51,555 nt of DNA from contig QHWJ01000375.1 of NCBI GenBank assembly GCA_003222535.1, forward strand, positions 1 through 51,555. The letters are read 5' to 3'. This DNA is from Acidobacteriota bacterium. Lineage in GTDB: Bacteria > Acidobacteriota > Vicinamibacteria > Vicinamibacterales > CAVVIG01. Position numbers and translations under genes: made by a program. This document shows positions 9,717 through 51,555 of the stretch, one piece after another. How positions within the stretch are numbered: position 1 is the stretch's first letter; every line of letters starts with the position of its first letter. The notes below the pieces were generated by a model. It saw only the letters and a list, made by a program, of their open reading frames with translations. It did not search any database and was not told the origin of the DNA.

Positions 9717-9792
9717 AATGGCAACCACGCAGGGAGTATCGAATGGCACGTTCGCGGTGAGGACCACATCCGCTTGACGGGACGCCGGTAGT

Positions 9793-9862
9793 GTCCGGCT
9801 TCAGCCGGACGTGTCACAACGCTAAAGTCAAAGTTAAACGCAGAACCCGCAAAGCCCGCGGA
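9793..9862. repeat. Two short dispersed repeats upstream of the cupin gene
   Basis: GTCCGGCTTCAGCCGGAC at 9793-9810 is a perfect palindrome related to the GAAGGCTTCAGCC family. AACGCAGAACCCGCAAAGCCC at about 9838-9858, without its last base, matches the CGCAGAAACCGCGGAACCCGC repeat at 7354 and 15239. They fill the 171-bp gap between the hydrolase and the cupin gene. Confidence 0.55.
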
Positions 9863-9887
9863 GATTCAAGCTCACAAGGGGGAGATC

Positions 9888-10283
9888 GTGAAACTCGCAA
9901 CCGTGACCGTCGTAACATTCGCGCTGGCGGCCATCGCCGGTGTCGGCGCGCAGGCCCCTGCCTTCAAGCGCACCGTCCTCCAGCAGGGCGATATCTCGGT
10001 GCCCGGCCGCGAGGCGGTGACCGCGGTCGCCGAATTTCAACCGGGATCGTCGCCCGGCCGGCACAGCCACCCGGGCGAAGAGGTCGGGTACGTCCTGGAA
10101 GGCAGGGTACTCCTCGAGCAAGAGGGCAAGCCCGCCGTCACGCTCAACGCCGGACAGCCGTTTCTCATCCCGGCTGGAACGATACACAACGCCACCAACA
10201 CGGGCGCGACCACGGCTCGGGTGCTTGCCACCTACATCGTCGAAAAGGGAAAGCCGCTGACCACGCTCGCTGCGACGAAATAG
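9888..10283 (+). CDS. Secreted single-domain cupin
   Basis: This 131-residue protein starts at a GTG with AGGGGGAG directly upstream. Residues 1-22 are a Sec signal peptide (KLATVTVVTFALAAIAGVGAQ). The remaining part is one cupin barrel: motif 1 is SPGRHSHPGEEVGYVLEGR, with HxH and a glutamate for the metal, and motif 2 is PFLIPAGTIHNATN with the last histidine. Secreted cupins of this kind are common in Acidobacteria and Proteobacteria and mostly have no assigned reaction. It converges with the NHL propeller gene at 10305, 21 bp away. It is one of three secreted cupins in the window. Confidence 0.88.
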   Translation: MKLATVTVVTFALAAIAGVGAQAPAFKRTVLQQGDISVPGREAVTAVAEFQPGSSPGRHSHPGEEVGYVLEGRVLLEQEGKPAVTLNAGQPFLIPAGTIHNATNTGATTARVLATYIVEKGKPLTTLAATK

Positions 10284-10304
10284 AGAGCGCTGTGGGCCGG
10301 TGGT

Positions 10305-11600
10305 TCATGGTTTCGGCGCCGGCCAGACAACGCCCTGGTCTTTCTTCGTGACCGGCGCCAGCCCTTTGTTCACGAACTTCTGGACGCGCTGTCCGCGGTA
10401 CGTCTCGGTCGTGTAGATGTTGCCCTTCGAGTCGGTGGCGATGCTGTGCACGCCGTAGAACGCGCCCGGCTGCCGTCCGCCCTCGCCGAAGCTCGTGAGC
10501 AGCTCGAGCGAATCACGGAGAATGACGTGCACCTTGTCGTTCTCACCGTCGGCGAGATACAGGTACTTCTGCTGCGGGTCCCTGGAGAATGCGACGTCCC
10601 ACGCAGAGCCGGACCCGAGCGTTTCCTTGTTGAAGAACGCTTCCTTCACGAATGACCCGTCCGGTTTGAACACCTGGATGCGGTCGTTCACGCGATCGCA
10701 GACGTACAGCAGCCGATCGACCGAGAGATCGGCGCAGTGGACCGGATTGCGGAACTGCTGCGCCGGCGGCGCCTTCGGATCGTATCGTCCCAGATCCACG
10801 TCGTCCGGCTTGTGGCCGTACGCGCCCCAGTGCCGCTTGTACTTGCCGGTGTCGGCGTCGAACACGATGACGCGGTGATTGCCGTAGCCGTCGGCGACGT
10901 ACAGCTCGTTGGTCGCCTTGTCGACGAAGGTCTTCGCCGGCAGCCTGAGGTTGGCGATGTCGTTGCTGCCCTTGCTCGATTTGGGCTTCCCGATCTGCAT
11001 CAGGAATTTCCCGTCCTGGGTGAACTTCAGGACCATGTTGTCGCTGAACGACTGGGTCCCGCCGGTCTGGCTCTCGTCCTGCTGCCGGTTCTGTCCAGCC
11101 GCCGGCTGCCCGCGTCCGGCCGCCGGCTGTCCGCGTCCACCCGCCGCAGCCGGCGAGCCGCGCCCGTTGCCGCCGATCCATACGTTGCCGCGGTAGTCGA
11201 CGGTGATGCCGTGATTCGAGTCGGGCCAGTCGTAGCCGTTGCCGGGTCCGCCCCAATGCCCGACCAGATTGCCCGCGGCGTCGAACTCGAGGATGGGCGG
11301 CGCTGGAGCGCAGCACTGCGCCGTCGGAGGGTTGGTCGTGGCGTGCACCTCGCCCGGTTCGAGCGAGCCCGCTCGATGGATGATCCAGACGTGGTCGCGC
11401 GCGTCCACGGAGACGCCGATCGTCTGGCCGAGAATCCATTTGTTCGGGAGAGGCCTCGGCCAGAGCGGATCGACTTCGAACCGCGGCGCCTGGACGGCGG
11501 CCGCCTCCATCGCCGCCGTCTTCTCGAGCCATGCGGATCCGATCCCGAGGGCTGCGACGACTGCGAGAAACGCCGCACCGACACAAAAGTTGCGCTTCAT
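10305..11600 (-). CDS. Secreted NHL-repeat beta-propeller protein
   Basis: The start at 11600 has GTGGAG six bases upstream and opens a signal peptide (MKRNFCVGAAFLAVVAALGI). The 431-residue protein is built of NHL-type blades, seen as repeated motifs such as DYRGNVWIGGNGRG, DKATNELYVADGYGNHRVIV, DRLLYVCDRVNDRIQVF and DSKGNIYTTETYRGQRVQKF. This is the six-bladed fold shared with peptidyl-alpha-hydroxyglycine lyases, but catalytic residues of that enzyme cannot be assigned with confidence. A low-complexity insert of Gly, Arg, Gln, Pro and Ala at about 145-170 breaks a blade loop. The Cys pair in TAQCCAP is unusual. It is divergent from the cupin gene at 11759. Confidence 0.85.
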   Translation of the reverse strand: MKRNFCVGAAFLAVVAALGIGSAWLEKTAAMEAAAVQAPRFEVDPLWPRPLPNKWILGQTIGVSVDARDHVWIIHRAGSLEPGEVHATTNPPTAQCCAPAPPILEFDAAGNLVGHWGGPGNGYDWPDSNHGITVDYRGNVWIGGNGRGSPAAAGGRGQPAAGRGQPAAGQNRQQDESQTGGTQSFSDNMVLKFTQDGKFLMQIGKPKSSKGSNDIANLRLPAKTFVDKATNELYVADGYGNHRVIVFDADTGKYKRHWGAYGHKPDDVDLGRYDPKAPPAQQFRNPVHCADLSVDRLLYVCDRVNDRIQVFKPDGSFVKEAFFNKETLGSGSAWDVAFSRDPQQKYLYLADGENDKVHVILRDSLELLTSFGEGGRQPGAFYGVHSIATDSKGNIYTTETYRGQRVQKFVNKGLAPVTKKDQGVVWPAPKP

Positions 11601-11758
11601 GTGTACTCCACTCAGATCGACGGTCAATTTGATTGAATCGCTCGAACCGCCATGCTAGGTTTTCACCGCGGGCAGCCGGCCGGACAAGCCAGGCTCCAAT
11701 GTGCCGCTTCCGATGATCTCTTCATGAGGCTCAACCCGGTATTGTAGAGGAAACGTCC

Positions 11759-12244
11759 ATGACACGCTCCTGCTCGATCAAATGGGCATGCTTCGTCCTC
11801 GGAACGTGCTTCCTTACGGTTCCGTTGGCCGCCGGGCAGCCGGCGAAGGCGGACCGACACGGGTTTATCGCGGCACAGCCGGAAGACCTGCGGCCGCTCG
11901 AAGGGGCCAGTCAAGTTGTCCTTTTTGGCGATCCAACCAAGCCAGGGATATATGTGGCTCGTTACACGTTCCCTGCCGGCCGCATCGGCCGACCGCACTT
12001 TCACAGCCAGGATCGGCACGTCACGGTCCTCAAGGGGACATGGTGGGTGGCGCTCGGCCCGGAAAGTGACGGCGGCGACGCCAGCAAGATGGTTCCGATG
12101 AAGGCGGGCAGTTACGTCTTCCACCCGGCCAACGGCCATCATTTCGATGGGGCGAGGGACGAAGACGTCACGGTGCAGATCACCGGCATGGGTCCGGTGA
12201 CCTCGACTCCGATCAAGTCCGAGGGCGGTCGGGGGCAGCGTTGA
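11759..12244 (+). CDS. Secreted cupin-fold protein
   Basis: This 161-residue protein has a GAGGAAAC ribosome site before the ATG and a signal peptide of about 26 residues. The cupin core has RPHFHSQDRHVTVLKGTWW (HxH) and a later GSYVFHPANGHHFDGA. It resembles secreted cupins annotated as domain-of-unknown-function proteins in Acidobacteria. Its TGA overlaps the TTG of the VOC gene by four bases (TTGA), so the two are translated together. Operon order is cupin, VOC protein and then the MBL hydrolase 10 bp further on. Confidence 0.83.
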   Translation: MTRSCSIKWACFVLGTCFLTVPLAAGQPAKADRHGFIAAQPEDLRPLEGASQVVLFGDPTKPGIYVARYTFPAGRIGRPHFHSQDRHVTVLKGTWWVALGPESDGGDASKMVPMKAGSYVFHPANGHHFDGARDEDVTVQITGMGPVTSTPIKSEGGRGQR

Positions 12245-12663
12245 ACCCGAGAAAGTCCATGATCATCGGCGCGCACTCCATCATCTACAGCACGAATCCT
12301 GCCGCCGACCGCGCGTTCTTGCGCGACGTGCTCGAACTGAGGAATGTCGACGTCGGCGGCGGTTGGCTGATCTTCGGACTGCCGCCCGCGGAAGTGGCCG
12401 TGCATCCCTCCGATACGAATGGCGTCCACGAATTCTATCTGGTGTGCGATAGCGTCGCGGCGTTCGTCTCGGACATGCGCAATCAGAACGTGCCGTGCGG
12501 TCCGGTGACGGAACAGACGTGGGGCTTGCTGACACACGTGGTGTTGCCGGGCGGCGGGAAACTTGGCGTATACCAACCACGGCATGCACGGCCAGAGGAC
12601 ATGACAGCGGAGCCGGCGCGGGCGAAGTCCGCACCACGGGCAACGAAAAAGCCCACGAGATAG
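12241..12663 (+). CDS. VOC (glyoxalase/dioxygenase-fold) protein
   Basis: This is a protein of about 140 residues with a VOC module. It opens with IIGAHSIIYSTNPAADRAFLRDVLELRN, here residues 8-34, the usual first beta-alpha-beta unit. It then has GGGWLIFGLPPAEVAVHP and GVHEFYLVCDSV, and a last strand with LLTHVVLPGGGKLGVYQPRH. Metal ligands would be His12, Glu and others, not assigned with certainty. A Lys/Arg/Ala-rich tail is probably disordered. The TTG at 12241 is preferred because it overlaps the upstream stop (TTGA); the ATG at 12259 is an alternative that removes six residues. It has no export signal, unlike both neighbours. Confidence 0.8.
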   Translation: MNPRKSMIIGAHSIIYSTNPAADRAFLRDVLELRNVDVGGGWLIFGLPPAEVAVHPSDTNGVHEFYLVCDSVAAFVSDMRNQNVPCGPVTEQTWGLLTHVVLPGGGKLGVYQPRHARPEDMTAEPARAKSAPRATKKPTR

Positions 12664-12673
12664 GAGCTCGAAT

Positions 12674-14146
12674 ATGAAACGCACGACATGGCTCGCGTTG
12701 TTCGCGGCGGCGGCATTGACCGCCTGCTCGCAGGCGACGCCGGAGCAGCAGATTATCAACGACGCCGCGGCCGCGCTGGGCGGTCGCGATCGGATTCTCG
12801 CCGTCAAGACGCTCGTGATCGAAGGCACGGGCACCAACGGCAACCTGGGCCAGGACATGACGCCCGCCGCCACTTCTCAGGCGTTCAACCTGACCGGTTA
12901 CAAACGCGCCGTTGACGTGGCCGCCGGCCGGGCCCGCGTCGAGCAGACGCGGACGCCGAACTTCACATACTTTCAGGGGCAGGCGCCTCAGAAGCAGGTG
13001 CTGGGCATCGACGGCGACGTCGGCTACAACGTGGCCGCCAACGGCAACGCGACGCGCGTGTCGAACGCGGTGGCGAAGGACCGGCGCGCGGAGATCTACC
13101 ATCATCCGCTGACGATCGTTCGCGCGGCGCTGGATCCCGCGGCGAAGCTCACCCAGCCCCGGACCGCCGGCAACCAGAGCGTCGTCGACGTCACGACCGC
13201 GAGCGGCCTCGCGTTCACGCTGGCGATCGACGGCACGACGAAGCTGCCCGCGCGCGTCGTCTCGATGACCGACAACCCCAATCTCGGCGACGTCGCCATC
13301 GAAACCAGCTTCACCGACTACCAGGACGTCAGCGGTCTGAAGCTTCCCGCGCACCTGACGACGAAGACCGACACCGTGACCACGACCGACATCCGAGCGA
13401 CGAAGCAGACCGTCGACGGCGACGCCGGCGACCTGGCGGCGCCGGCGGCCGCCGCGTCGGCCGCGCCGGTTGTAGGGCCTCCGCCCGCAACCGTCACCGT
13501 TGAAGAACTGGCGAAGGGTGTCTGGTTCCTCGGCGGCCAGTCCCACCACAGCGTGCTCGTGGAGTTCGCCGATCATCTGACGCTCATCGAAGCGCCGCAG
13601 AACGACGTGCGCTCGCTCGCCGTGATCGCCAAAGCCCGGGAGCTCAGGCCGGGCAAGCCGCTGACCTACGTCGTCAACACGCATCACCACTTCGATCACT
13701 CCGGCGGGATCCGCGCGGCGGTGTCGGAGGCCCTCACGGTCGTCACGCAGAAGGGGGCCGAGGCGTTCTATCATGACGCGATTGGACGGTCGCACACGAT
13801 CGTGCCGGATGCGCTGGCGAAGAATCCGAAGCCGCTGAAGATCGAAACCGTCGACGAGGAGATGGTTCTCAAAGACGCTGCGATGACGGTCAACCTGTAC
13901 CGCATCGCCGGCAACGAGCACGCCGACACGCTGCTGATGGCCTACTTCCCGCGCGAGCGGCTTCTCGTAGAGGCGGATGTATACAGCCCCGCCGCAGCTG
14001 TGCAGCCGTATGCCGCAAACCTGCTGGAGAACATCAGGAAGCGCAACCTCCAGGTCGCCCGCATCGTGCCGATTCACGGCACGATCGTGCCGTTCAGCGA
14101 GCTCGTCAAGGCGGTGCCGTCGACGGCGTCGACAGCGTCGCAGTGA
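12674..14146 (+). CDS. MBL-fold hydrolase, lipoprotein with large N-terminal domain
   Basis: This is a 490-residue protein. The N-terminus is a lipoprotein signal with lipobox LTAC at about residue 18. Residues 25-255 form a beta-rich domain of the kind found in outer-membrane lipoprotein-like proteins, then an Ala/Pro-rich linker. The metallo-beta-lactamase domain (about 270-480) has the zinc motif THHHFDHSGG, a later GNEHADTL and a C-terminal PIHGTIVPF. It probably sits in the periplasm attached to a membrane and hydrolyses a small ester, lactone or similar bond. The ATG has a GGAGCTC site seven bases upstream. It is the last gene of the cupin-VOC operon. Confidence 0.87.
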   Translation: MKRTTWLALFAAAALTACSQATPEQQIINDAAAALGGRDRILAVKTLVIEGTGTNGNLGQDMTPAATSQAFNLTGYKRAVDVAAGRARVEQTRTPNFTYFQGQAPQKQVLGIDGDVGYNVAANGNATRVSNAVAKDRRAEIYHHPLTIVRAALDPAAKLTQPRTAGNQSVVDVTTASGLAFTLAIDGTTKLPARVVSMTDNPNLGDVAIETSFTDYQDVSGLKLPAHLTTKTDTVTTTDIRATKQTVDGDAGDLAAPAAAASAAPVVGPPPATVTVEELAKGVWFLGGQSHHSVLVEFADHLTLIEAPQNDVRSLAVIAKARELRPGKPLTYVVNTHHHFDHSGGIRAAVSEALTVVTQKGAEAFYHDAIGRSHTIVPDALAKNPKPLKIETVDEEMVLKDAAMTVNLYRIAGNEHADTLLMAYFPRERLLVEADVYSPAAAVQPYAANLLENIRKRNLQVARIVPIHGTIVPFSELVKAVPSTASTASQ

Positions 14147-14166
14147 CCCGCGGTGTCGCGTCGTTC

Positions 14167-14233
14167 GAAGGCTCGGCTAAAGCCTTCACCGACGACCGCC
14201 ACATGTCGCCGAAGCGCGAAGGCTTTAGCCGGG
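14167..14233. repeat. Inverted GAAGGCTTTAGCC elements at a convergent junction
   Basis: GAAGGCTCGGCTAAAGCCTTC at 14167-14187, less one base at the end, forms a 7-bp stem on its own. GCGAAGGCTTTAGCCGGGC lies in the opposite sense at 14215-14233. Together the two copies can pair with each other. They fill most of the 103-bp gap between the convergent MBL and amidohydrolase genes, which suits a two-way terminator. Confidence 0.6.
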
Positions 14234-14249
14234 CGTCCGCCGCCCACGG

Positions 14250-15224
14250 TCAGAATCCGTAAAGTCTCGCAGGATTGTCGACCAGGATCATCCTGCGCTC
14301 GGTGGCGTCCGGAGCCCAAGTCGCCAGCTGGTTGAACACGCGCCCGTCATCGATCGGGAGCAGCGGCGCGACGTCCGTCGGTTTGCGGCCCGTCACTGGC
14401 GAAGAGTCCGGGTGCGGCCAGTCCGTCCCCCACAGGACTTGTTGGGGGTTCGCCGCGATCAGCGCCTTTGCAAGCGGCGCGACGTCGGCGTAGTCCGGGA
14501 GTTGCGTGGAGCTGCGGTAGGCCCCCGAGACCTTGACATAGGCGTGGCCGGTTCGTACGAGGTTCAGGAGCGCGTCGAAACCGGGCTGCCGGACGCCGAG
14601 CGACGCCTCCGCTCCCCCGAAATGGTCGAAGACGATCGGGATCGGGCTCGCCAGCACCTGGTCTTCGAGGCCTTTGATGACGGAGAGCCGTGTGTAGACC
14701 TGCACATGCCAGGTGCGACTCTTGACCCGCTGGATTGCCGCCTGCAGACGCCGACGGCCGGCCGCGGGATCGGTGAGGCCGGCGGCTTCGAGATTGACCC
14801 TGATCCCCCGAATGCCGCCCCGTGCCATCTTGTCGAGCGCGGCGTCAGGTGTCTTGTCATCAATCACGGCGACGCCGCGAGCGTCCGATCCGAGCTGCCT
14901 GATCGCATCGAGCGTGCACGCGTTGTCCGTGCCGTAAACGCTCGGCTGGACGATCACGACCCGGTCCGTATGGAGCGTTCGATGCAGCGCCCGCATCTCC
15001 TCGATTGAGGCCGTCTCCGGCGTGTACGCGCGCGACGGTGTGAACGAGAAGCGGCGCGAGTCTCCAAAGATGTGCGTGTGGCAGTCGCACGCGCCCGCGG
15101 GCACGTCGAAATCAACCGGCGTGGCCGGCTGTGACGCTTTGGCCGATAACGTGGTCGGACGCCGAACGAACGCGGCAACACCGGCCACCGCCGCGCCAAG
15201 CAGAGCGTCGCGTCGCGAGAGCAT
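14250..15224 (-). CDS. Tat-exported amidohydrolase (2-pyrone-4,6-dicarboxylate lactonase-like)
   Basis: This 324-residue protein starts at the ATG at 15224 with GGGAGAA upstream; earlier in-frame starts lie in a repeat. Its N-terminus MLSRRDALLGAAVAGVAAF is a twin-arginine signal. The amidohydrolase-2 (TIM barrel) domain has the metal motif CDCHTHIFG, a conserved FDHFGG and the C-terminal WGTDWPHP with the catalytic aspartate. The best family match is the PDC lactonase/galactarolactone isomerase type, which hydrolyses carboxylated lactones from aromatic or sugar-acid breakdown. Export by Tat is less usual for it. The molybdenum hydroxylase genes are directly upstream on the same strand, separated by a repeat of 61 bp. 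Confidence 0.86.
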   Translation of the reverse strand: MLSRRDALLGAAVAGVAAFVRRPTTLSAKASQPATPVDFDVPAGACDCHTHIFGDSRRFSFTPSRAYTPETASIEEMRALHRTLHTDRVVIVQPSVYGTDNACTLDAIRQLGSDARGVAVIDDKTPDAALDKMARGGIRGIRVNLEAAGLTDPAAGRRRLQAAIQRVKSRTWHVQVYTRLSVIKGLEDQVLASPIPIVFDHFGGAEASLGVRQPGFDALLNLVRTGHAYVKVSGAYRSSTQLPDYADVAPLAKALIAANPQQVLWGTDWPHPDSSPVTGRKPTDVAPLLPIDDGRVFNQLATWAPDATERRMILVDNPARLYGF

Positions 15225-15238
15225 GCGATTCTCCCAAG

Positions 15239-15268
15239 CATTTTTCTCTGCGGGTTCCGCGGTTTCTG
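15239..15268. repeat. Dispersed CTCTGCGGGTTCCGCGGTTTC repeat
   Basis: The strand read here is the reverse complement of the repeat at 7354-7382 (AGAAACCGCGGAACCCGCAG). It lies between the stop of the molybdopterin subunit gene and the start of the amidohydrolase gene. Confidence 0.6.
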
Positions 15269-15285
15269 AGTTGTCCGTGATTTCC

Positions 15286-17643
15286 TCAGAGCAGTGCGCT
15301 GCTTCCAATCCGGGCGTCGAGCGCCGCTTTGACGCGCTCGGGCGTGAAGGGCACCTGGCGGATGCGCGCGCCGGTTGCGTCGAAGATCGCATTGCCGATC
15401 GCCGCCGCGACGATTGTGATCGAAGTCTCGCCGGAACCGGTGGCCTCGACGTCCGTCCGGTTGACCAGCACGCTTTCGACCGCCGGGACCTCGAAGCCGA
15501 GCGGCAGGCTGTGGTACGTTCGCCAGTCGATCGACGTCACCTTCTGATCGTCCCACGTCACTTCTTCGCCGAGCGCGCGGCTCATGCCCTGGAGCGCGCC
15601 GCCTTCGAGCTGGTTCCGCATGCCGTCGGGGTTCGAGATCGGACCGCAGTCCTGCGCGACGACGATCCGCTTCACGCGCACGCGCCCGGTCGCCTGATCG
15701 ACGTCGACCTCGGCGACCATCGCGGCGTACCCGTTGTCGCCTTCGTACAACACGCACGAGATGCCGCGGCCGCCCGCGATGCCGGTTCGGCGAACATCCG
15801 GCCTCGGCGAGGGACGCGCCTCCCAGCGCGCCGCCTTCGCGGCCTCCCGGACGACGTGGCTCAACCGTGCGTCGCTCAGGTGACGCAGGCGGTACTCGAC
15901 CGGATCCACCTTCACACGCGACGCGACTTCATCCATGAAGCACTCGTGCGCGAAGGTGTTCTGCAGGCGCGACGGCGAACGCAGCGGTCCGGTGAAGAAG
16001 TGCGACTTGACGGTGTGCGACAGCACGCGCTCGCTCCTGACCGTGCCGGTGCCGCCGCACTTGCCGCCGACGCAGCCCGTCACGTACGACGGCGCGGTAT
16101 TGCCGCCGTTGTCGAACGCGCCCCCTGGATCCGGCGCCGGTGTCCGCGGCGTGAACGCCGCCGGCTCGAAGCCGGCCAGTTGACCGGTGATCACATTGCC
16201 GGGCCGGTCGTATCCGGGCCGCCCGCCGAGCGTCGGCGACCATCCCTCGTAGTCCCACGCGACGATGGTGCCGTTGGCGTCGATGCCGACGCGCTGATCG
16301 ATGACGAACGCGACGCCATAGTTCTCCCACGCCATCTCGTCCCTGCGCGAGAGCTGCACGCGGACCGGCTTCCCGACCGCCTGCGACAGCAGCGCGGCGT
16401 CGTACGACACGGTGTCCGCGCCGTTGATCCCGTAGCAGCCGGACCCTCGAGTGAAGATCACGCGGACGTTCTCCACCGGCAGACCGAGCAGCAGCGCGGA
16501 CCCGCTCCGCGTCGGGTGCGCGGATTGCGTCGGCGACCAGATCGTCGCCTTGTCGCCCTGCACGTCGGCCACCGCGCACGAGCTGCCGATCGATCCGTGC
16601 ATCTGATACGGATGCAGATAAGTGGCCTTCAGCACCTCCTTCGCTTGCGCGAGCTTCTCGTCGACGTCTTTGGAGCTCACGACGAACGTGTCGCGGGAGG
16701 GCTTCTGTTTCCTCAGGTAGTCGTAGAAGTCGCGATGGCTCGGCAGGCCGACGCCGGGCGTCCACGTGGCCTTCAGTCGATTCGCCGCCTGAATCGCCTG
16801 CCACGGCTTCTCGGCCACGACCCCGACGAAGTTCTTTTTGACGACGACCTTCACCAGGCCTGGCAGGCCCCGCACCGAGCTTTCGTCGACGCTCACCAGC
16901 GTGGCGCCCACCGCGGGCGGCCGCACGACCCGGCCGTGCAACATGCCGGGCACGCGCACGTTGTGCACGAACTCGAATTGTCCGGTCGCCATCGCCGGCA
17001 TGTCCACGCGCCCCACGGGTTTGCCGAGGACGGTCCACTCGCTCGCGGGCTTTCGTTTGGCCGTCGTGCTGAGCGGGATGCTGAACTTCTTCCCACCGAC
17101 CAGCTCGCCGTAGCTCACCCGCTTCGACGCGTCGCCTTTCACCGTGATCACGCCGTCCGCCGCCGCGAGCTGGTTCACCGGAGCGCCGAGGCGTTCCGAA
17201 GCGAGGCGGACGAGCGCTTCGCGCGCCGTCGCGCCGGCCTGTGCCAGGTTCCGCTCGTTGAAATTGGTCGGGGTCGACTGGCTGCCGGACGTCGTGCCCT
17301 GGTCCGGAGCGATCGACGTGTCGCACTGAATCAGCTTCACGCGCGCAATCGGCACCGAAAGCTCTTCAGCCACGAGCTGCAGCTGCGCCGTGGAGATCCC
17401 CTGGCCGAGCTCGCACTTGCCGGTATACGCGGTCACGCTGCCGTCGGTGGCGATCGCGATCCACGAATCGAGCTGCCTCGCGTCGACCTGCGGTCCGCGG
17501 GCGCCGCCTCCGCGCTGCGCGAGCCCGATCCGCTGCGCGGCTCCCGCGGCGCTGAAGCCCACGATCAGGGCGCCGGAGGTCTTCAGAAAATCGCGGCGCG
17601 AAAACCCGGCTCGTGCGAGGGCGGCGCGCGCATCTGGCGTCAT
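15286..17643 (-). CDS. Molybdopterin-binding subunit of a xanthine dehydrogenase-family oxidoreductase, Tat-exported
   Basis: This is a 785-residue large subunit. The start is set at 17643 (MTPDARAALARAG) ahead of the Tat motif FSRRDFLKTSGALIVGFS; a GTG two codons earlier is also possible. The protein follows the isoquinoline oxidoreductase/nicotinate dehydrogenase subunit B pattern: YTGKCELGQGISTAQLQLV near the start, two tandem cofactor-binding domains, GSGCYGINGADTVSYDAALL at the pterin site and GSGETSITIVAAAIGNAIF with the catalytic Glu near the end. It hydroxylates a substrate with water and passes electrons to the 2Fe-2S subunit encoded at 17748. No FAD subunit is present, which fits a c-type cytochrome acceptor in the periplasm. 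The substrate is not known. Confidence 0.92.
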   Translation of the reverse strand: MTPDARAALARAGFSRRDFLKTSGALIVGFSAAGAAQRIGLAQRGGGARGPQVDARQLDSWIAIATDGSVTAYTGKCELGQGISTAQLQLVAEELSVPIARVKLIQCDTSIAPDQGTTSGSQSTPTNFNERNLAQAGATAREALVRLASERLGAPVNQLAAADGVITVKGDASKRVSYGELVGGKKFSIPLSTTAKRKPASEWTVLGKPVGRVDMPAMATGQFEFVHNVRVPGMLHGRVVRPPAVGATLVSVDESSVRGLPGLVKVVVKKNFVGVVAEKPWQAIQAANRLKATWTPGVGLPSHRDFYDYLRKQKPSRDTFVVSSKDVDEKLAQAKEVLKATYLHPYQMHGSIGSSCAVADVQGDKATIWSPTQSAHPTRSGSALLLGLPVENVRVIFTRGSGCYGINGADTVSYDAALLSQAVGKPVRVQLSRRDEMAWENYGVAFVIDQRVGIDANGTIVAWDYEGWSPTLGGRPGYDRPGNVITGQLAGFEPAAFTPRTPAPDPGGAFDNGGNTAPSYVTGCVGGKCGGTGTVRSERVLSHTVKSHFFTGPLRSPSRLQNTFAHECFMDEVASRVKVDPVEYRLRHLSDARLSHVVREAAKAARWEARPSPRPDVRRTGIAGGRGISCVLYEGDNGYAAMVAEVDVDQATGRVRVKRIVVAQDCGPISNPDGMRNQLEGGALQGMSRALGEEVTWDDQKVTSIDWRTYHSLPLGFEVPAVESVLVNRTDVEATGSGETSITIVAAAIGNAIFDATGARIRQVPFTPERVKAALDARIGSSALL

Positions 17644-45849: not shown

Positions 45850-46983
45850 ATGCGCATCGGCCTCGTCGTGACCGGCGGCGTCGACCGCTCCGGCCGCGAG
45901 CGCGTGGTGCCGAGCTTGCTCTGGCTGATCGAGCGGCTGGCGCGCCGCCACGACGTGCACGTCTTCGCGCTGCATCATTATCGCGATCCGTGCACGTATC
46001 CGCTGCTGGGGGCGACCGTGCACGACGTCGGCCGCGTGGACGGCCCGATCGGCCTGCGCCGGTTCCGGCTGCGGGCGCGGCTCGCCGCGGCGATCGGCGC
46101 GACGGCGTCGCGCGGTCCGTTCGACGTGCTGCACGCCTACTGCGGGATGCCCGCCGGCGTCGTTTCGACCGAGGTCGGCCGCCGACTCGGCATCCCGGTT
46201 CTGGTCTCCCTCGACGCCGGCGAGCTGGTATCCCTCGACGACATCCGGTACGGCCTGCAGCGCCGCTGGATCGACCGTCGCGCAACGGCCCGCACGATTC
46301 GCGACGCCGCGCGCATCACCGTGGCGACCGGTTTCATGGCGCGGATGGCGCCGCTCACCGGCGCACGCGTCGACATCATTCCGATGGGGATCGAGACAGG
46401 CTGCTTTCCACCCGCGACGCGCGACACGACTGCCGGCGGTCCGCCGTGGCGGTTGCTGCGCGTCGCCAGCCTGAACGCCGTCAAGGATTATCCGATGCTG
46501 CTGCGGGCGCTCGCGCGCATCATCCGGTGCGGCCTCGACGTCCACCTCGATGTCGTCGGCGACGACACGCTGGACGGAGCGGTGCAGGCGCTGGCCCGAG
46601 CGCTCGGCGTCGATGGGCACGTGACCTTTCACGGGTTTCGGCCGACCGATGCGCTGGCGGCGTTTTATGCGCGCGCCCACGTGCACGTGGTGTCCTCCCG
46701 TCACGAGGCTGCAAGCGTCGTGGTCCTCGAGGCGGCGAGCACCGGACTGGCGACGGTCGGCACCGCAGCCGGGTACGTGGCGGACTGGACACCCGACCGC
46801 GCGGTGGCCGTGCCGGTGGGCGATCCGGCGGCGCTCGCCGACGCGATTGTCGCGCTGCTTCATGATCCGTCGCGGCGCCAACGGATCGCGTCCGCCGCGC
46901 GCGCCTGGACCATCGCGCACGACGCCGACTGGACGGCGCGGCAGTTCGAGCGCGTTTACGCCGAGGTCGTCCGGATACGGTGA
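45850..46983 (+). CDS. GT4-family glycosyltransferase
   Basis: This is a 377-residue GT-B enzyme. The N-terminal half starts with MRIGLVVTGGVDRSGRERVV, the donor-independent half of GT4 proteins. The C-terminal half has WRLLRVASLNAVKDYPMLLR, VTFHGFRPTDALAAFYARAH and HEAASVVVLEAASTGLATVG, the EX7E motif that contacts the sugar nucleotide. It adds a sugar to a lipid, protein or glycan at the cytoplasmic face. No other capsule or lipopolysaccharide genes are seen, so the acceptor is unknown. It converges with the radical SAM operon, whose product could be its acceptor; that is inference. Confidence 0.88.
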   Translation: MRIGLVVTGGVDRSGRERVVPSLLWLIERLARRHDVHVFALHHYRDPCTYPLLGATVHDVGRVDGPIGLRRFRLRARLAAAIGATASRGPFDVLHAYCGMPAGVVSTEVGRRLGIPVLVSLDAGELVSLDDIRYGLQRRWIDRRATARTIRDAARITVATGFMARMAPLTGARVDIIPMGIETGCFPPATRDTTAGGPPWRLLRVASLNAVKDYPMLLRALARIIRCGLDVHLDVVGDDTLDGAVQALARALGVDGHVTFHGFRPTDALAAFYARAHVHVVSSRHEAASVVVLEAASTGLATVGTAAGYVADWTPDRAVAVPVGDPAALADAIVALLHDPSRRQRIASAARAWTIAHDADWTARQFERVYAEVVRIR

Positions 46984-46991
46984 AGACCCGC

Positions 46992-47123
46992 CTCAACTCT
47001 CAACTGTCAACTGTCAACTCTGAAGACTCAAAGGCTCAACTCTCAGACTTCAGAGTTGAGAGGTTTCAGAGTTGAGAGTTGGGAGTTGAGACCTGAGACT
47101 TGAGACTTGAGACTTGAGACTTG
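46992..47123. terminator. Large CTCAACT/GAGTTGA word array between convergent genes
   Basis: The left part is CTCAACTCTCAACTGTCAAC words; the right part GAGTTGAGAG, GGGAGTTGAGAC and five GAGACTT words. CTCAACTCTCAACT (46992-47005) is complementary to AGTTGAGAGTTGGG (47070-47083) at 13 of 14 bases. The array begins 8 bp after the glycosyltransferase stop and ends 28 bp before the amidohydrolase stop. Confidence 0.7.
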
Positions 47124-47151: not shown

Positions 47152-48372
47152 TCATCGGGCGGAGACTCCCGGCTCCACGATCGGGCAGCCGGCGATTCGC
47201 CGCACCAGCCCGGAGTCCGCGATCTTCGCCGCCCCGTCTACGCGGAGGGGACGCACCGTCACGCGTCGCGCCCGAAACACCGCGGCGAGATCGGCATCGC
47301 CGACCATCGGTCGGCCGCCCACTGTCACCAGCCGAACGTCATGCCTCATCGTCAGCAGCAGGGCGGCCGCCGGCTCCGGCGCAAACGGAGGGATCACCAG
47401 GAGGTCCGCCGGCGCATTCACGACGATGCGGCCGGATCGTGGCAGCCGGAGCAGCGCCGCGGCGCGGGTCGTCACCATATCGAGGAGCTCGGCATGCGAC
47501 ACCGGCGTCGCCCCGTAGGCGACGCGCAGCTCCTCGAGCAGATCGCGCGAGCCGGTGACGCGCGAGTCGGTGCCGAGCGCGACGTGTGTCCGCGCGTGAC
47601 CGCCGGCATCGAGCAGTTCGCGCACCGAGGCCGTGCGGCCGAAGAGAAACGCATTCGACGCGGGGCACCACACCAGGCCGGCGCCTGCCTCCGCCACCCG
47701 CCGCCACCCGTTGCCGTCGATGCCGACGCCATGGATGATCACCGTATTCGGCTTCAGGCATCCGAGCGCCTCGAGCCGCGGCAGCTCGCCCTGCGCGTCG
47801 GCGTCCACGCCTTCGGCGAGATGCACGAGGAACGGCGCGTCAGGCGGAGTCGAGCGCCAGCGGTGCGCGACATCGCCGCCGGGCTCGCCTCGCGCACCGG
47901 CCGGCTGCCGCTCGAGCCGGAACGAATGCGCCCACCCGTACCGCCGCATGACACGGATCGGCATCGTCCGCCTGAGCTCCGAATAGAACGGATTGTGATG
48001 GGCCACCGTCGTCACGCCGGCCAGCAGGTTTTTCAGCCCGCCGATGAACAGCCGCTCGGTCAGCGACTGGGCACGTCCGTCGCGGATGGCGGGATCGCCG
48101 GAGAGGCGCGGACGGATGTCGTCGATCCACTCGGATGCGTTCTCGTATCGGTCGCGACTCTTGAGACGCCCGTAATGATTCAGCTCGAGGTGATCGTGCG
48201 CGTTGACGAGCCCCGGCAAGACGACGCCGCCCCGCAGATCGACGACCGTGTCGCCGCGCCTGGGGCGCTCGCCGATGGACAGAATCCGCGACGTGAACCG
48301 GACGGACTCCTCGAGCCGGCCTTCGGCGGCGACTCGCGCGTTCACGAACGACACGGCGCTGGCCCAGATCAC
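47152..48372 (-). CDS. Amidohydrolase (chlorohydrolase/deaminase-like)
   Basis: This is a 406-residue protein starting at a GTG at 48372 that overlaps the methyltransferase stop by four bases (GTGA). The composite-domain amidohydrolase pattern is clear: an N-terminal strand part, GGVVLPGLVNAHDHLELNHY carrying the first metal ligands, GVTTVAHHNP, FLVHLAEGVDAD, VIIHGVGID, WCPASNAFLFGR and ALGTDSRVTG with the catalytic Asp. This is the Atz/Trz and deaminase group; here the first motif reads HDHLE, where the family often has HTH. The C-terminal part has the usual ADLLVI strand. It is the last gene of a four-gene operon, so it may act on the product of the upstream enzymes. Confidence 0.87.
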   Translation of the reverse strand: MIWASAVSFVNARVAAEGRLEESVRFTSRILSIGERPRRGDTVVDLRGGVVLPGLVNAHDHLELNHYGRLKSRDRYENASEWIDDIRPRLSGDPAIRDGRAQSLTERLFIGGLKNLLAGVTTVAHHNPFYSELRRTMPIRVMRRYGWAHSFRLERQPAGARGEPGGDVAHRWRSTPPDAPFLVHLAEGVDADAQGELPRLEALGCLKPNTVIIHGVGIDGNGWRRVAEAGAGLVWCPASNAFLFGRTASVRELLDAGGHARTHVALGTDSRVTGSRDLLEELRVAYGATPVSHAELLDMVTTRAAALLRLPRSGRIVVNAPADLLVIPPFAPEPAAALLLTMRHDVRLVTVGGRPMVGDADLAAVFRARRVTVRPLRVDGAAKIADSGLVRRIAGCPIVEPGVSAR

Positions 48373-49151
48373 GGCTCTTTGACGGCGTGAAACACGACGA
48401 CGGCCTGGGGATTGTTCCACCGCCGGCGGAAGGCCCTGATGCCGGGATCGAAGCTTCGCGTGACGCGCGGCTCGCGAATCGCGCGCACGTGCAGACCTGC
48501 CTGCTCGATCGCGTCCAGATGGTCGTCGATCGCATGCGGGTGATAGGAGACTTCGTGGAGCGTGCCGTCGGCGTCCCGAAACGTGCGGCTCCAGCCGCGC
48601 TCTGCCCAGGACGGGTGGAAGTCCGAGTAGACGAGGTGACCACCGACCGCCAGCGCGCGCGCCATCTCGCGCGTGAAGGCGCCGAGGTCCGCCACGTCGC
48701 CGACCATCAGCGAGGCGTTGATCACGTCGAAGGCGCCGCGTCTGAACGGCAGGCGGCAGGCGTCGGCGCAGATGCGCCGGTGCCCGATCCCGCGCGTCAG
48801 CATCGCGAGCGAGAAATCGAGACCGAGCACGACCGACGCGCCGGTTGATTGCAGCAGCGGCACGTAACGGCCCGAGCCCGTACCGACGTCGAGCGCCCGC
48901 CTGGCGCGCAGCTTCGCGAGCATCGGCTCCACCACCTCCTGCTCCACGCGCATCAGCGGGTTGTGCGCGACGGCAGGATACGTGTCGGCCCACAACTCAT
49001 ACGCCACGCGCGGCGGCAGCACCTCTGCGCTGCGATGGGCGGGACGCGAGATGCGGGGGGCGGCGGGCGACGCGCACGGTGCGGCGTGCGACGTGCGATA
49101 TGCGACGTGCGAGGTGAAGGTTGAGAGTTGAGAGTTGATTGTTGTTTTCAT
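48369..49151 (-). CDS. Class I SAM-dependent methyltransferase (UbiE/BioC-like) with repeat-derived N-terminus
   Basis: This 260-residue protein has the family start YELWADTYPAVAHNPLMRVE, the SAM site ALDVGTGSGRYVPLLQSTGA, then VVLGLDFSLAML and ADACRLPF. The ATG at 49151 is one base after the stop of the radical SAM gene. It opens about 40 residues (SQLSTFTSHVAYRTSHAAPC and so on) encoded by a word array at 49038-49146, before any methyltransferase sequence. A GTG at 49022 or 49007 would skip this part. Either the array was inserted in frame or it separates the two genes. The C-terminal part has ending KEP. It is coupled to the amidohydrolase. Confidence 0.88.
   Translation of the reverse strand: MKTTINSQLSTFTSHVAYRTSHAAPCASPAAPRISRPAHRSAEVLPPRVAYELWADTYPAVAHNPLMRVEQEVVEPMLAKLRARRALDVGTGSGRYVPLLQSTGASVVLGLDFSLAMLTRGIGHRRICADACRLPFRRGAFDVINASLMVGDVADLGAFTREMARALAVGGHLVYSDFHPSWAERGWSRTFRDADGTLHEVSYHPHAIDDHLDAIEQAGLHVRAIREPRVTRSFDPGIRAFRRRWNNPQAVVVFHAVKEP
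49038..49146. repeat. Word array at the 5' end of the methyltransferase gene
   Basis: Plus-strand words are GCGACGTGCG, ATATGCGACGTGCGAGGTG and GTTGAGAGTTGAGAGTTGA. The last matches the CTCAACT/GAGTTGA arrays elsewhere. Only one arm is present, so no strong hairpin forms. The array lies in frame within the predicted coding sequence. Confidence 0.65.
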
Positions 49152-49152
49152 C

Positions 49153-50883
49153 TCAGAACCCCGTGGTTTCCGGACGTTGATACGGAATCAGACGATGCAG
49201 CACGCGCAGCTCGTAAGGTGCGTGGTACCACTTCAACGCGTACCGCCACGCGCTGGCCGCTTTCAGCGCGGCGCGGTGCCACCCCGTCAACCGCGCGTCA
49301 GTGACCGTCGGGTAGTACGCGTTGATGACGCGCTCGAAGTTCCGGATGCGGCGGCGGATGTCGGCGCCCGTGCCCTCCATCCACGGAATCCCGTCGCCGC
49401 GGCGCATTGACAGCTGCTCCCAATCCGGCGACGCCCACTCTTCGAGCGTCTCCGGAAACGCGAACCCGCGCCGCCGGGCCTCGGCATACAGGCGACCGTC
49501 GAGCGGCACCGGCGTGTAGGTGTAGAGCACGATCTCGGTCGAGGGATTGATCCGTTTGATCCGCCGGATGAACTCGAAGGTCGTGGCGACGTCCTGTTCC
49601 GGATCGGGCGGGCATCCGAGGACGAACGAAAATTCCGGCACGATGCCGTAATGGCGCATGCGGCGCGCGAGCTCCAGCGTCAGCGCCGCCGACGCCCGTC
49701 CACCTTTGTTCATCCTGGCCAGCACTTCGTCGGTGCCCGATTCCGCGCCGGAGAACACCATCGCGAGCCCGGCGCGCGCCATCTGCTCCCAGGTGGCATC
49801 GCTGTACTGCATCAGCGTGTCGACGCGGCCGAGCGCCCACCACCGCAGCCCGAGCCCGTCGATCCGCCGGGCGAACTCTTCGGTGCGGGCTTCGGAAATG
49901 AAGAAGTCCATGTCGTGCATCTGCACGGCGTCGACGCCGTACGTCTTGACCAGATGCCGCATGACCCGCTCCAGGCGCGCCGGCGATTGCGCCAGCCACC
50001 TCCGGTTCGACATCGCGACGACCGCGCAGAAGCTGCAGGCGAACGGGCAGCCGAACGACGAGTTGTGTGCCACCGTGCGGTGGCCCAGGTAGTTCTTCTG
50101 CACATACCGCCGCATGTCGACGCGGTGATACGGCAAGTCGGGCAGATCGTCGAGCGTCGTCAGCGGCTGCACCGGGTTGTTCACGACCTGGTCGTTTCGC
50201 TCGTCTGAAAGGCTCGCGCTCCAGGACCCACCTGACCTACCCAACCCACCTGACCTACCCAACCCACCCGACCTACCCGACCCATCTGACCTACTCAACC
50301 CATCTGACCTACCCGACTCACCCGACCCATCCGACCTATCCGACCCACCTGCCCTACCCGACCCATCTGACCTACTCAACCCCCCTGACCTACCCGACTC
50401 ACCCGACCTATCCGACCCACCTGCCCTACCCGACCCACCCTTCCAGGAGAGTCCTCCCACGCTGTTCAGCAGCCCGCCGGATCGCAGGACGTCGACGAGC
50501 TGCAGCAGCGCCCGCTCGCCCTGCGAGCGGATGACGAAATCGACGTATGGCGATCGCAGCACAGTGTCGGCGTGCTGCGTCGGGAAGTACCCTCCCCACA
50601 CGATCGACACGTGCGGCAGTGCCTCGCGCACGCGGCGGCAGACGGCCACCGCCTGCGTCAGCTGCGGCCCCGGCATCACGGTGACGGCGAGCAGCGCGAA
50701 GCGCGATCGCGTCAAGGCGGACAGGCGCGCGACGATCTCGGCCGCCGGATCGGGCACGACGTTGCCGTCGACGAGTGCCCAGGCTTCACCCCTGGTCTCG
50801 AGCACCGCCGCCAGCGCCATCAGCGACAGCGGCAGCGGCTGTTTCCCCGGCGTCGTCGACAGCGGGTTGTAGAGGAGGATCAT
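49153..50883 (-). CDS. B12-binding-domain radical SAM enzyme
   Basis: This is a 576-residue protein starting at an ATG at 50883 that overlaps the upstream stop (ATGA). Residues 1-140 are a cobalamin-binding-like domain (LLYNPLSTTPGKQPLPLSLM, VWGGYFPTQHADTVL); no DxHxxG motif is seen, as in many of these enzymes. About residues 145-220 are a Gly/Ser/Arg repeat tract (see 50227). The radical SAM core follows with the 4Fe-4S motif GCPFACSFC and then DAVQMHDMDFF, FSGAESGTDEVLARMNKGG. The C-terminal part is family-specific. Relatives methylate unreactive carbons or rearrange lipids and antibiotics. Two methyltransferases and an amidohydrolase in the same operon point to a small-molecule or lipid modification route. 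Confidence 0.9.
   Translation of the reverse strand: MILLYNPLSTTPGKQPLPLSLMALAAVLETRGEAWALVDGNVVPDPAAEIVARLSALTRSRFALLAVTVMPGPQLTQAVAVCRRVREALPHVSIVWGGYFPTQHADTVLRSPYVDFVIRSQGERALLQLVDVLRSGGLLNSVGGLSWKGGSGRAGGSDRSGESGRSGGLSRSDGSGRAGGSDRSDGSGESGRSDGLSRSDGSGRSGGLGRSGGLGRSGGSWSASLSDERNDQVVNNPVQPLTTLDDLPDLPYHRVDMRRYVQKNYLGHRTVAHNSSFGCPFACSFCAVVAMSNRRWLAQSPARLERVMRHLVKTYGVDAVQMHDMDFFISEARTEEFARRIDGLGLRWWALGRVDTLMQYSDATWEQMARAGLAMVFSGAESGTDEVLARMNKGGRASAALTLELARRMRHYGIVPEFSFVLGCPPDPEQDVATTFEFIRRIKRINPSTEIVLYTYTPVPLDGRLYAEARRRGFAFPETLEEWASPDWEQLSMRRGDGIPWMEGTGADIRRRIRNFERVINAYYPTVTDARLTGWHRAALKAASAWRYALKWYHAPYELRVLHRLIPYQRPETTGF
50227..50440. repeat. In-frame 18-bp minisatellite in the radical SAM gene
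   Basis: The plus strand is made of variants of CACCTGACCTACCCAACC, with some 9-bp half-units: exact units start at 50229 and 50247, and diverged ones follow to 50440. On the coding strand this reads as hexapeptides such as GRSGGL, GRSDGL and GRAGGS, giving about 70 residues. Eighteen is a multiple of three, so changes in copy number keep the frame. The tract joins the cobalamin-binding-like domain to the radical SAM core. Confidence 0.85.
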
Positions 50884-51555
50884 CGCGCCACCCACAAGCC
50901 GAACGCGGCGGGGGCGCGCCGGAGCCGGATTCTCGCGAGGCTCCGCCGCAGGCGCCAGCCGGGCGGGCCGTGCGACGGCAGGAACTGCGGCCGCAGGTCG
51001 AGCTTCTCGGCGATCGCGGCGAGCGTCGCGAACGTGAGATACCCGAGACCCTGCCGCACGGCCTGGTGGAGGCCGCACTCGAGCATGAAGTGCCGCATCT
51101 TGTCGTCGACCATGGCCGCCCCGTCGCGGTCGGCGCGAAACATCGGCGAGTCCATCACGGCGATCACACCTCCTGGCGCCAGCTGACGATACGCAGTCTC
51201 GAGCGTGGCGGCCGTGTCGGTCGCGTAATGCAGCGACCCGTTGAACACCACGAGATCGAATTGGCCCGGCGCGAACGGCAGCGCGTTGAAGTCGGCATGC
51301 ACGACCGCGAACTCGGTCGGGTAGTGGCGCGTCGCGCCGAGGCCGTCGGTCTCGTCGTCGAGGGCGTCGAGGGCGACGGCGTCGTGCCCGAGCGCCGACA
51401 GGCGATGAGACAGCCAGCCGGTGCCGGCGCCGAGATCCAGGACCTGCACCGGGTGCGGCCCTGCGGCCAGCACGTGCTGCAGAAGATGGCGATAACTTTC
51501 GCGGCGAATGCGCCACTCGCCCGCGTGCGGATCGTCGGACGCGACCAACGGCAGC
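50880..51555 (-). CDS. Class I SAM-dependent methyltransferase, C-terminal part
   Basis: The gene enters from the right edge; about 225 residues are seen. The SAM site is VLDLGAGTGWLSHRLSALGH followed by VALDALDDETDGLG, ADFNALPFAPGQFDLVVFNG and LAPGGVIAVMDSP. The frame stays open to the edge without an ATG (a TTG at 51548 is unlikely to be the start), so the N-terminus lies outside. Its TGA overlaps the ATG of the radical SAM gene. The C-terminal part (GPPGWRLRRSLARIRLRRAP) is basic and may bind membrane or nucleic acid. It is the first visible gene of the four-gene operon. Confidence 0.87.
   Translation of the reverse strand, partial: LPLVASDDPHAGEWRIRRESYRHLLQHVLAAGPHPVQVLDLGAGTGWLSHRLSALGHDAVALDALDDETDGLGATRHYPTEFAVVHADFNALPFAPGQFDLVVFNGSLHYATDTAATLETAYRQLAPGGVIAVMDSPMFRADRDGAAMVDDKMRHFMLECGLHQAVRQGLGYLTFATLAAIAEKLDLRPQFLPSHGPPGWRLRRSLARIRLRRAPAAFGLWVAR

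Follow-up and report, generated by a model that had tools for sequence, protein, structure and literature searches.

The four minus-strand genes at the right-hand end of the window raise the question of whether they form a complete biosynthetic pathway and, if they do not, to what larger system they belong. The window (51,555 bp) is an entire contig, C125, of an 8.06-Mb genome in 450 contigs, whose nearest relatives are metagenome-assembled genomes of Acidobacteria of the group 6 (Vicinamibacteria) type. Open-reading-frame coordinates and Pfam searches bear out the arrangement described in the original prediction: genes for a methyltransferase (MT1), a B12-type radical SAM protein (rSAM1), a second methyltransferase (MT2), and an amidohydrolase (AH) follow one another (Table 1), with an ATGA overlap between MT1 and rSAM1 (50880-50883), a single base (49152) between the stop codon of rSAM1 and the ATG of MT2, and a GTGA overlap between MT2 and AH (48369-48372). 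MT1 has no start codon in the window, and its reading frame continues past the contig end. The family 4 glycosyltransferase (GT4) said to face the set does end towards AH, and it belongs to the conserved neighbourhood.

Table 1. Features of the gene cluster in the window (C125) and on contig C375 of the same genome
Feature	Coordinates	Strand	Description
MT1	50880..51555	-	Class I SAM-dependent methyltransferase; 5' end truncated by contig end; Methyltransf_11, 4e-15 (Pfam)
rSAM1	49153..50883	-	N-terminal B12-binding-type domain and radical SAM domain; PF02310, PF04055
MT2	48369..49151	-	Class I SAM-dependent methyltransferase; Methyltransf_11 (Pfam); homologous body from ~49022
AH	47152..48372	-	Amidohydrolase-superfamily zinc enzyme; Amidohydro_1, PF01979, 1e-18
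GT4b	45850..46983	+	Family 4 glycosyltransferase; convergent to the set; kept in the neighbourhood
In-frame GC-rich tandem array within rSAM1	50225..50440	-	18-bp unit, 12.4 copies; longer period of 81
Repeat-derived MT2 leader	49023..49151	-	Heptamer arrays at 49067-49116 and 49120-49138 (TRF); not in orthologues
Heptamer repeats between AH and GT4	46992..47123		Close relatives have a Wzx-type flippase gene here
Wzx-type flippase, PF01943	L131 (C375) 9773-11167		Divergent
Wzy_C protein	L131 (C375) 11230-13203		
GT4 and B12-type radical SAM fusion (rSAM2 part)	L131 (C375) 13187-16162		One 991-residue open frame

The four-gene set is not a chance arrangement, because the order rSAM1-MT2-AH recurs in many loci and five or more further loci of Acidobacteria have the full order MT1-rSAM1-MT2-AH. 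Orthologues of MT1 were found at L027, L028, L031, L043, and L089; its relatives extend about 75 residues further at the N terminus, where they carry a Cys4 (zinc-ribbon-like) pattern. L033 and L034 have no MT1, which is thus a dispensable or accessory member. The junctions are as originally described, but the one-base gap is misleading. Homology of MT2 to its relatives starts only at residue 43-45 or so, the first 42 or so codons being heptamer repeats (identified with TRF), whereas the closest relatives have the conserved MT2 region starting near the rSAM1 stop. An insertion at the start of MT2 is therefore the best explanation of the one-base junction, which is poor evidence of coupling.

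The genes that had been predicted to lie beyond the window do exist, although nothing lies to its right on C125. Using orthologues from locus L033 as queries, we located the upstream half of the cluster on another contig of this genome, C375 (39,063 bases), where it comprises, in order, the divergent flippase, Wzy_C, the GT4-B12-radical-SAM fusion, another B12-type radical SAM protein, a radical SAM/SPASM protein, and a methyltransferase, MTF4, that is cut by the contig end. Past the break, C125 continues with the cut MT1, rSAM1, MT2, AH, and the facing GT4. Since C375 ends within one methyltransferase and C125 within MT1, the two contigs very likely abut, a join drawn from synteny rather than from the assembly. 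The same run of genes is unbroken in L043 and L089, except for the third B12-type radical SAM gene. The four genes are thus no self-contained pathway but the downstream half of a set of about ten. At six loci of relatives (L026, L027, L028, L029, L033, and L043) the flippase gene lies after AH; we had considered that this genome had lost it, the gap between AH and GT4 holding only repeats, and withdrew that idea once the gene was located at the other flank of the cluster. A flippase, a Wzy-type protein, and glycosyltransferases occur together here, as well as in L033 and L043, which is the composition expected of a Wzx/Wzy cluster. A conserved protein of about 320 residues with no Pfam match is encoded near the cluster (L131 8740-9708, minus strand; L034 2155-3153; also L135, L132, L133, and L039), and a GS...DxD pattern in it hints at a nucleotidyltransferase fold.

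Acidobacteria of soil and groundwater (Vicinamibacteria-type) share the set as a conserved unit, with relatives in the Chloroflexi. Of 162 genomes examined in the order, 20 have AH, 21 have rSAM1, and 19 have both (Fisher p = 1.6e-21, a value that ignores shared ancestry); all 17 genomes with rSAM2 also have rSAM1. The carrier genomes cover several families, and most genera are without the set. When one genome per species was scanned at the protein level, 69 relatives of AH came up, mostly from Acidobacteria and Anaerolineae. The widest partnership of AH is with rSAM2 and not with its neighbours in the window, because an orthologue of rSAM2 or rSAM3 lies near AH in 28 of the 39 non-acidobacterial loci that have at least 3.5 kb of downstream sequence. 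These orthologues mostly share 54-63% identity and usually lie 50-350 bp downstream of AH, and many of the loci run on through rSAM3, MTF4, a flippase (Wzx), a PMT-type glycosyltransferase, and a GT4. In Anaerolineae AH is usually followed directly by the orthologue of the fused radical SAM protein (rSAM2), with a flippase and a GT4 further on. In the AH tree, Acidobacteria and Chloroflexota fall into few blocks, and one Anaerolineales sequence (L034) sits beside Acidobacteria with 99/96 support, a placement that is consistent with transfer without proving it.

Several records at the edges of this distribution deserve mention. Two genomes of the order (L139 and L140) lack AH but have rSAM2, rSAM3, MTF4, and a distant rSAM1; glycosyltransferase-like and nucleotidyltransferase-like genes lie beside the former and a GT4 beside the latter, and we regard these loci as a distinct form of the module, related to the one described here. 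Genome G041, a single contig, has relatives of rSAM1, rSAM2, and rSAM3 and gave no match to AH. Cluster genes recorded from a Bifidobacterium breve metagenome-assembled genome (L035) and under Pleurocapsa minor (L094) group in sequence with those of Acidobacteria and Chloroflexi, and look like binning or labelling errors.

rSAM1 has the CxxxCxxC motif of the radical SAM superfamily, Cys198, Cys202, and Cys205 being invariant in the orthologue alignment. The DxHxxG motif of classical base-off/His-on cobalamin binding is absent from that alignment, where DxN is found instead (Asp38 and Asn40 invariant). The structural model (pLDDT 86) is nearest among solved folds to AprD4 (6fd2; Z 26.1), a radical SAM 1,2-diol dehydratase of apramycin biosynthesis, followed by OxsB (25.5), MgmA (24.4), and TsrM (24.3); CysS and TokK share the fold as well. 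rSAM1 resembles AprD4 in length and in its two-domain fold over 411 residues (rmsd 3.4), but the two are 21% identical, and OxsB and further cobalamin enzymes come almost level with AprD4 (Z 24-25.5). With AprD4 and OxsB tied, methylation, dehydration, and rearrangement are all possible for rSAM1. It scores below the NCBIfam cut-offs of the families tested: 100 bits of 481 for BchE, 86 of 577 for HpnJ, 58 (57.7) of 500 for AprD4, and 49 of 650 for HpnR.

The zinc ligands and catalytic Glu of AH (H59, H61, H184, E187, H214, and D269) are invariant in the alignment, and the AF2 model (pLDDT 94) is closest to six MTA/SAH deaminases (4f0s, 4gbd, 4f0r, 4dzh, 4dyk, and TM0936; Z 34.4-36.2), with isocytosine and triazine enzymes ranking behind; the best profile match is also to the MTA/SAH deaminase family. 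The positions for metal binding and catalysis (HxH, HxAE, H, and D) are common to AH and these deaminases, but AH lacks the ribose-recognition loop. In an alignment with L157 and L159, two MTA/SAH-deaminase-like proteins encoded by this genome, AH has neither the RG(L/V)ADDLxLxxWL ribose loop nor GTDGAASNN; in their place are a conserved region, NAHDHLELNHYxRxK...NAxxW...ED, and GSDSRLT. The subfamily signature can be written NAHDHLELNH...HLAEGxD...HGV...DSR. AH also misses the curated MTA/SAH-deaminase cut-offs by a wide distance (PRK15493, 35.9 of 779; PRK07228, 32.1 of 522). Membership among ordinary MTA/SAH deaminases was rejected. Because the ribose loop and GTDGAASNN are replaced by a conserved region of its own, AH is, judged by alignment, a new and distinct subfamily of this fold that has no ribose-recognition loop.

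The fold nevertheless provides the best rival explanation for AH taken alone, namely that it is a dedicated scavenger outside the pathway proper, deaminating the 5'-deoxyadenosine and SAH released by the radical SAM enzymes and methyltransferases of the cluster. Radical SAM enzymes are inhibited by 5'-deoxyadenosine (PMC6079011), AH directly adjoins rSAM2 in two phyla, and both its metal ligands and its nearest structural neighbours would suit such a role. The replacement of the ribose loop and of GTDGAASNN argues against it, as does the presence in this genome of three other loci that score 242-292 against PRK15493, by which the function seems to be covered already; moreover, AH is tied to this cluster and not to radical SAM enzymes in general. 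We consider the scavenger role unlikely.

For the cluster as a whole, the gene content (a flippase, Wzy_C, two GT4s, and a GT4-radical-SAM fusion) leads us to infer an exported glycan altered by radical chemistry. This content speaks for such a product more than for a small scaffold. What the pathway makes is probably an exported envelope glycan or glycolipid-linked oligosaccharide, with radical SAM enzymes modifying its sugars, and the genes in the window are the distal half of the cluster. GT4 enzymes would assemble the lipid-linked glycan; the B12-type radical SAM proteins, one of them fused to a GT4, and the SPASM protein would act on its sugars (C-methylation, dehydration, and rearrangement are examples of what they might do); caps would be added to the glycan by class I methyltransferases; AH may take an amino, amide, or imino group off an intermediate; and the Wzx-type flippase would export the unit, which the Wzy_C-type protein would polymerise or transfer. 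The sequences establish which genes are there and in what order, the fusion, the co-inheritance, and the intactness of the metal or cluster motifs of AH and rSAM1; the glycan substrate, the order of the steps, and every chemical step are put forward on this conditional footing, and the sequence of two methylations and a hydrolysis originally outlined is speculation. Judging from open-frame lengths, a single frame of more than 900 residues covers GT4 and rSAM2 in seven genomes, the two being separate in the rest; the fused form links radical SAM chemistry with glycosyl transfer. The nearest fold of rSAM1 also favours a glycan, AprD4 being a radical SAM enzyme that acts on an aminosugar (PMC5461906), with OxsB tied. 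Counting against it, no enzyme of the cluster has a characterised close relative.

Known Wzx/Wzy surface polysaccharide clusters resemble this one in having a PF01943 flippase, a Wzy_C protein, GT4 glycosyltransferases, and methyltransferases, but differ from it in several respects: here there are three B12-domain radical SAM proteins and one SPASM radical SAM protein, a GT4-radical-SAM fusion, and an amidohydrolase of deaminase fold, and no initiating phosphoglycosyltransferase was recognised among the cluster genes scanned with Pfam. Nucleotide-sugar enzymes were not identified in the cluster either. A search of open-licence papers found no description of it, and it is a real, conserved, and apparently undescribed variant of the surface-polysaccharide clusters. 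That it makes a new class of surface glycan in Acidobacteria and Chloroflexi, with carbon-centre radical chemistry performed on the growing chain by a fusion of a glycosyltransferase with a cobalamin-type radical SAM enzyme, acting together with a new amidohydrolase subfamily, is a bolder proposal that we consider possible but doubtful. The module, conserved in two phyla, links radical SAM enzymes and an uncharacterised amidohydrolase subfamily to envelope export genes and offers a concrete route into the chemistry of the surface glycans of Acidobacteria and Anaerolineae; the fusion allows the idea of radical chemistry on a glycan to be put to a direct test.

The strongest rival explanation of the cluster as a whole is that it tailors the polar head group or acyl chain of a membrane lipid, with the GT4 enzymes making a glycolipid. 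The flippase would fit, and the B12-type radical SAM proteins have HpnJ, HpnR, and BchE among their best curated matches; BchE, HpnJ, and the ladderane lipid enzymes also give scores with the rSAM2 and rSAM3 families, which makes a lipid substrate possible. Yet all these scores fall far short of the curated thresholds (for HpnJ, HpnR, and BchE about 50-150 bits, against cut-offs of 481-650), as rSAM1 against HpnJ illustrates, none of the cluster genes was recognised as encoding an acyl or isoprenoid enzyme, and a Wzy_C-type protein is not expected of a simple lipid pathway. We judge the lipid alternative quite unlikely. A modified peptide (RiPP) or other diffusible natural product is very improbable: the scores with RiPP radical SAM families (ApyD, 84 bits; rSAM_ocin_1, 66) fall far below the cut-offs of 750 and 282, the cluster genes mapped in L033 overlap or lie no more than about 40 bp apart and leave no space for a precursor gene, and the flippase and Wzy_C indicate an envelope polymer.

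None of the window enzymes or cluster radical SAM proteins tested reached an NCBIfam cut-off. The original statement that the gene order could not be matched to a known pathway thus holds for the curated hopanoid, BchE, ladderane, RiPP, and cofactor families. The hopanoid and BchE routes were rejected, all curated cut-offs being missed widely. A genome search for squalene-hopene cyclase returned a weak match to a divergent, terpene-cyclase-like protein of 654 residues with a DGDDT motif on another contig (L161 481-2445), plus weaker partial matches, which leaves a link to hopanoids unsupported, and none is required.

The repeats of the locus fall into two kinds. The in-frame array of rSAM1 (216 bp) encodes a Gly/Ser/Arg linker of about 72 residues between the B12-type and radical SAM domains, an insert missing from all 17 rSAM1 orthologues aligned. 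Its DNA matches dozens of other sites in the same genome, and in a search of 45 genomes a degenerate pattern of the array core occurred 75 times in this genome, 27 times in a relative (G005), at most three times in four more genomes, and nowhere in the remaining 39. The occurrences in G005 include a place beside rSAM2. GC-rich in-frame arrays occupy the inter-domain linkers of rSAM1, the GT4-rSAM2 fusion, and rSAM4 (the latter two at L131), and the flippase of a relative (L026) carries such an array as well. The second kind consists of heptanucleotide tandem repeats (CTCAACT, AGACTTG, GCGACGT, and GTTGAGA) in the spacers at 46992-47123 and 49067-49138, which recall the STRR elements of cyanobacteria. 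A 20-mer of the CTCAACT repeat was found in only two of the 45 genomes searched, nine times in this genome and 46 times in G025.
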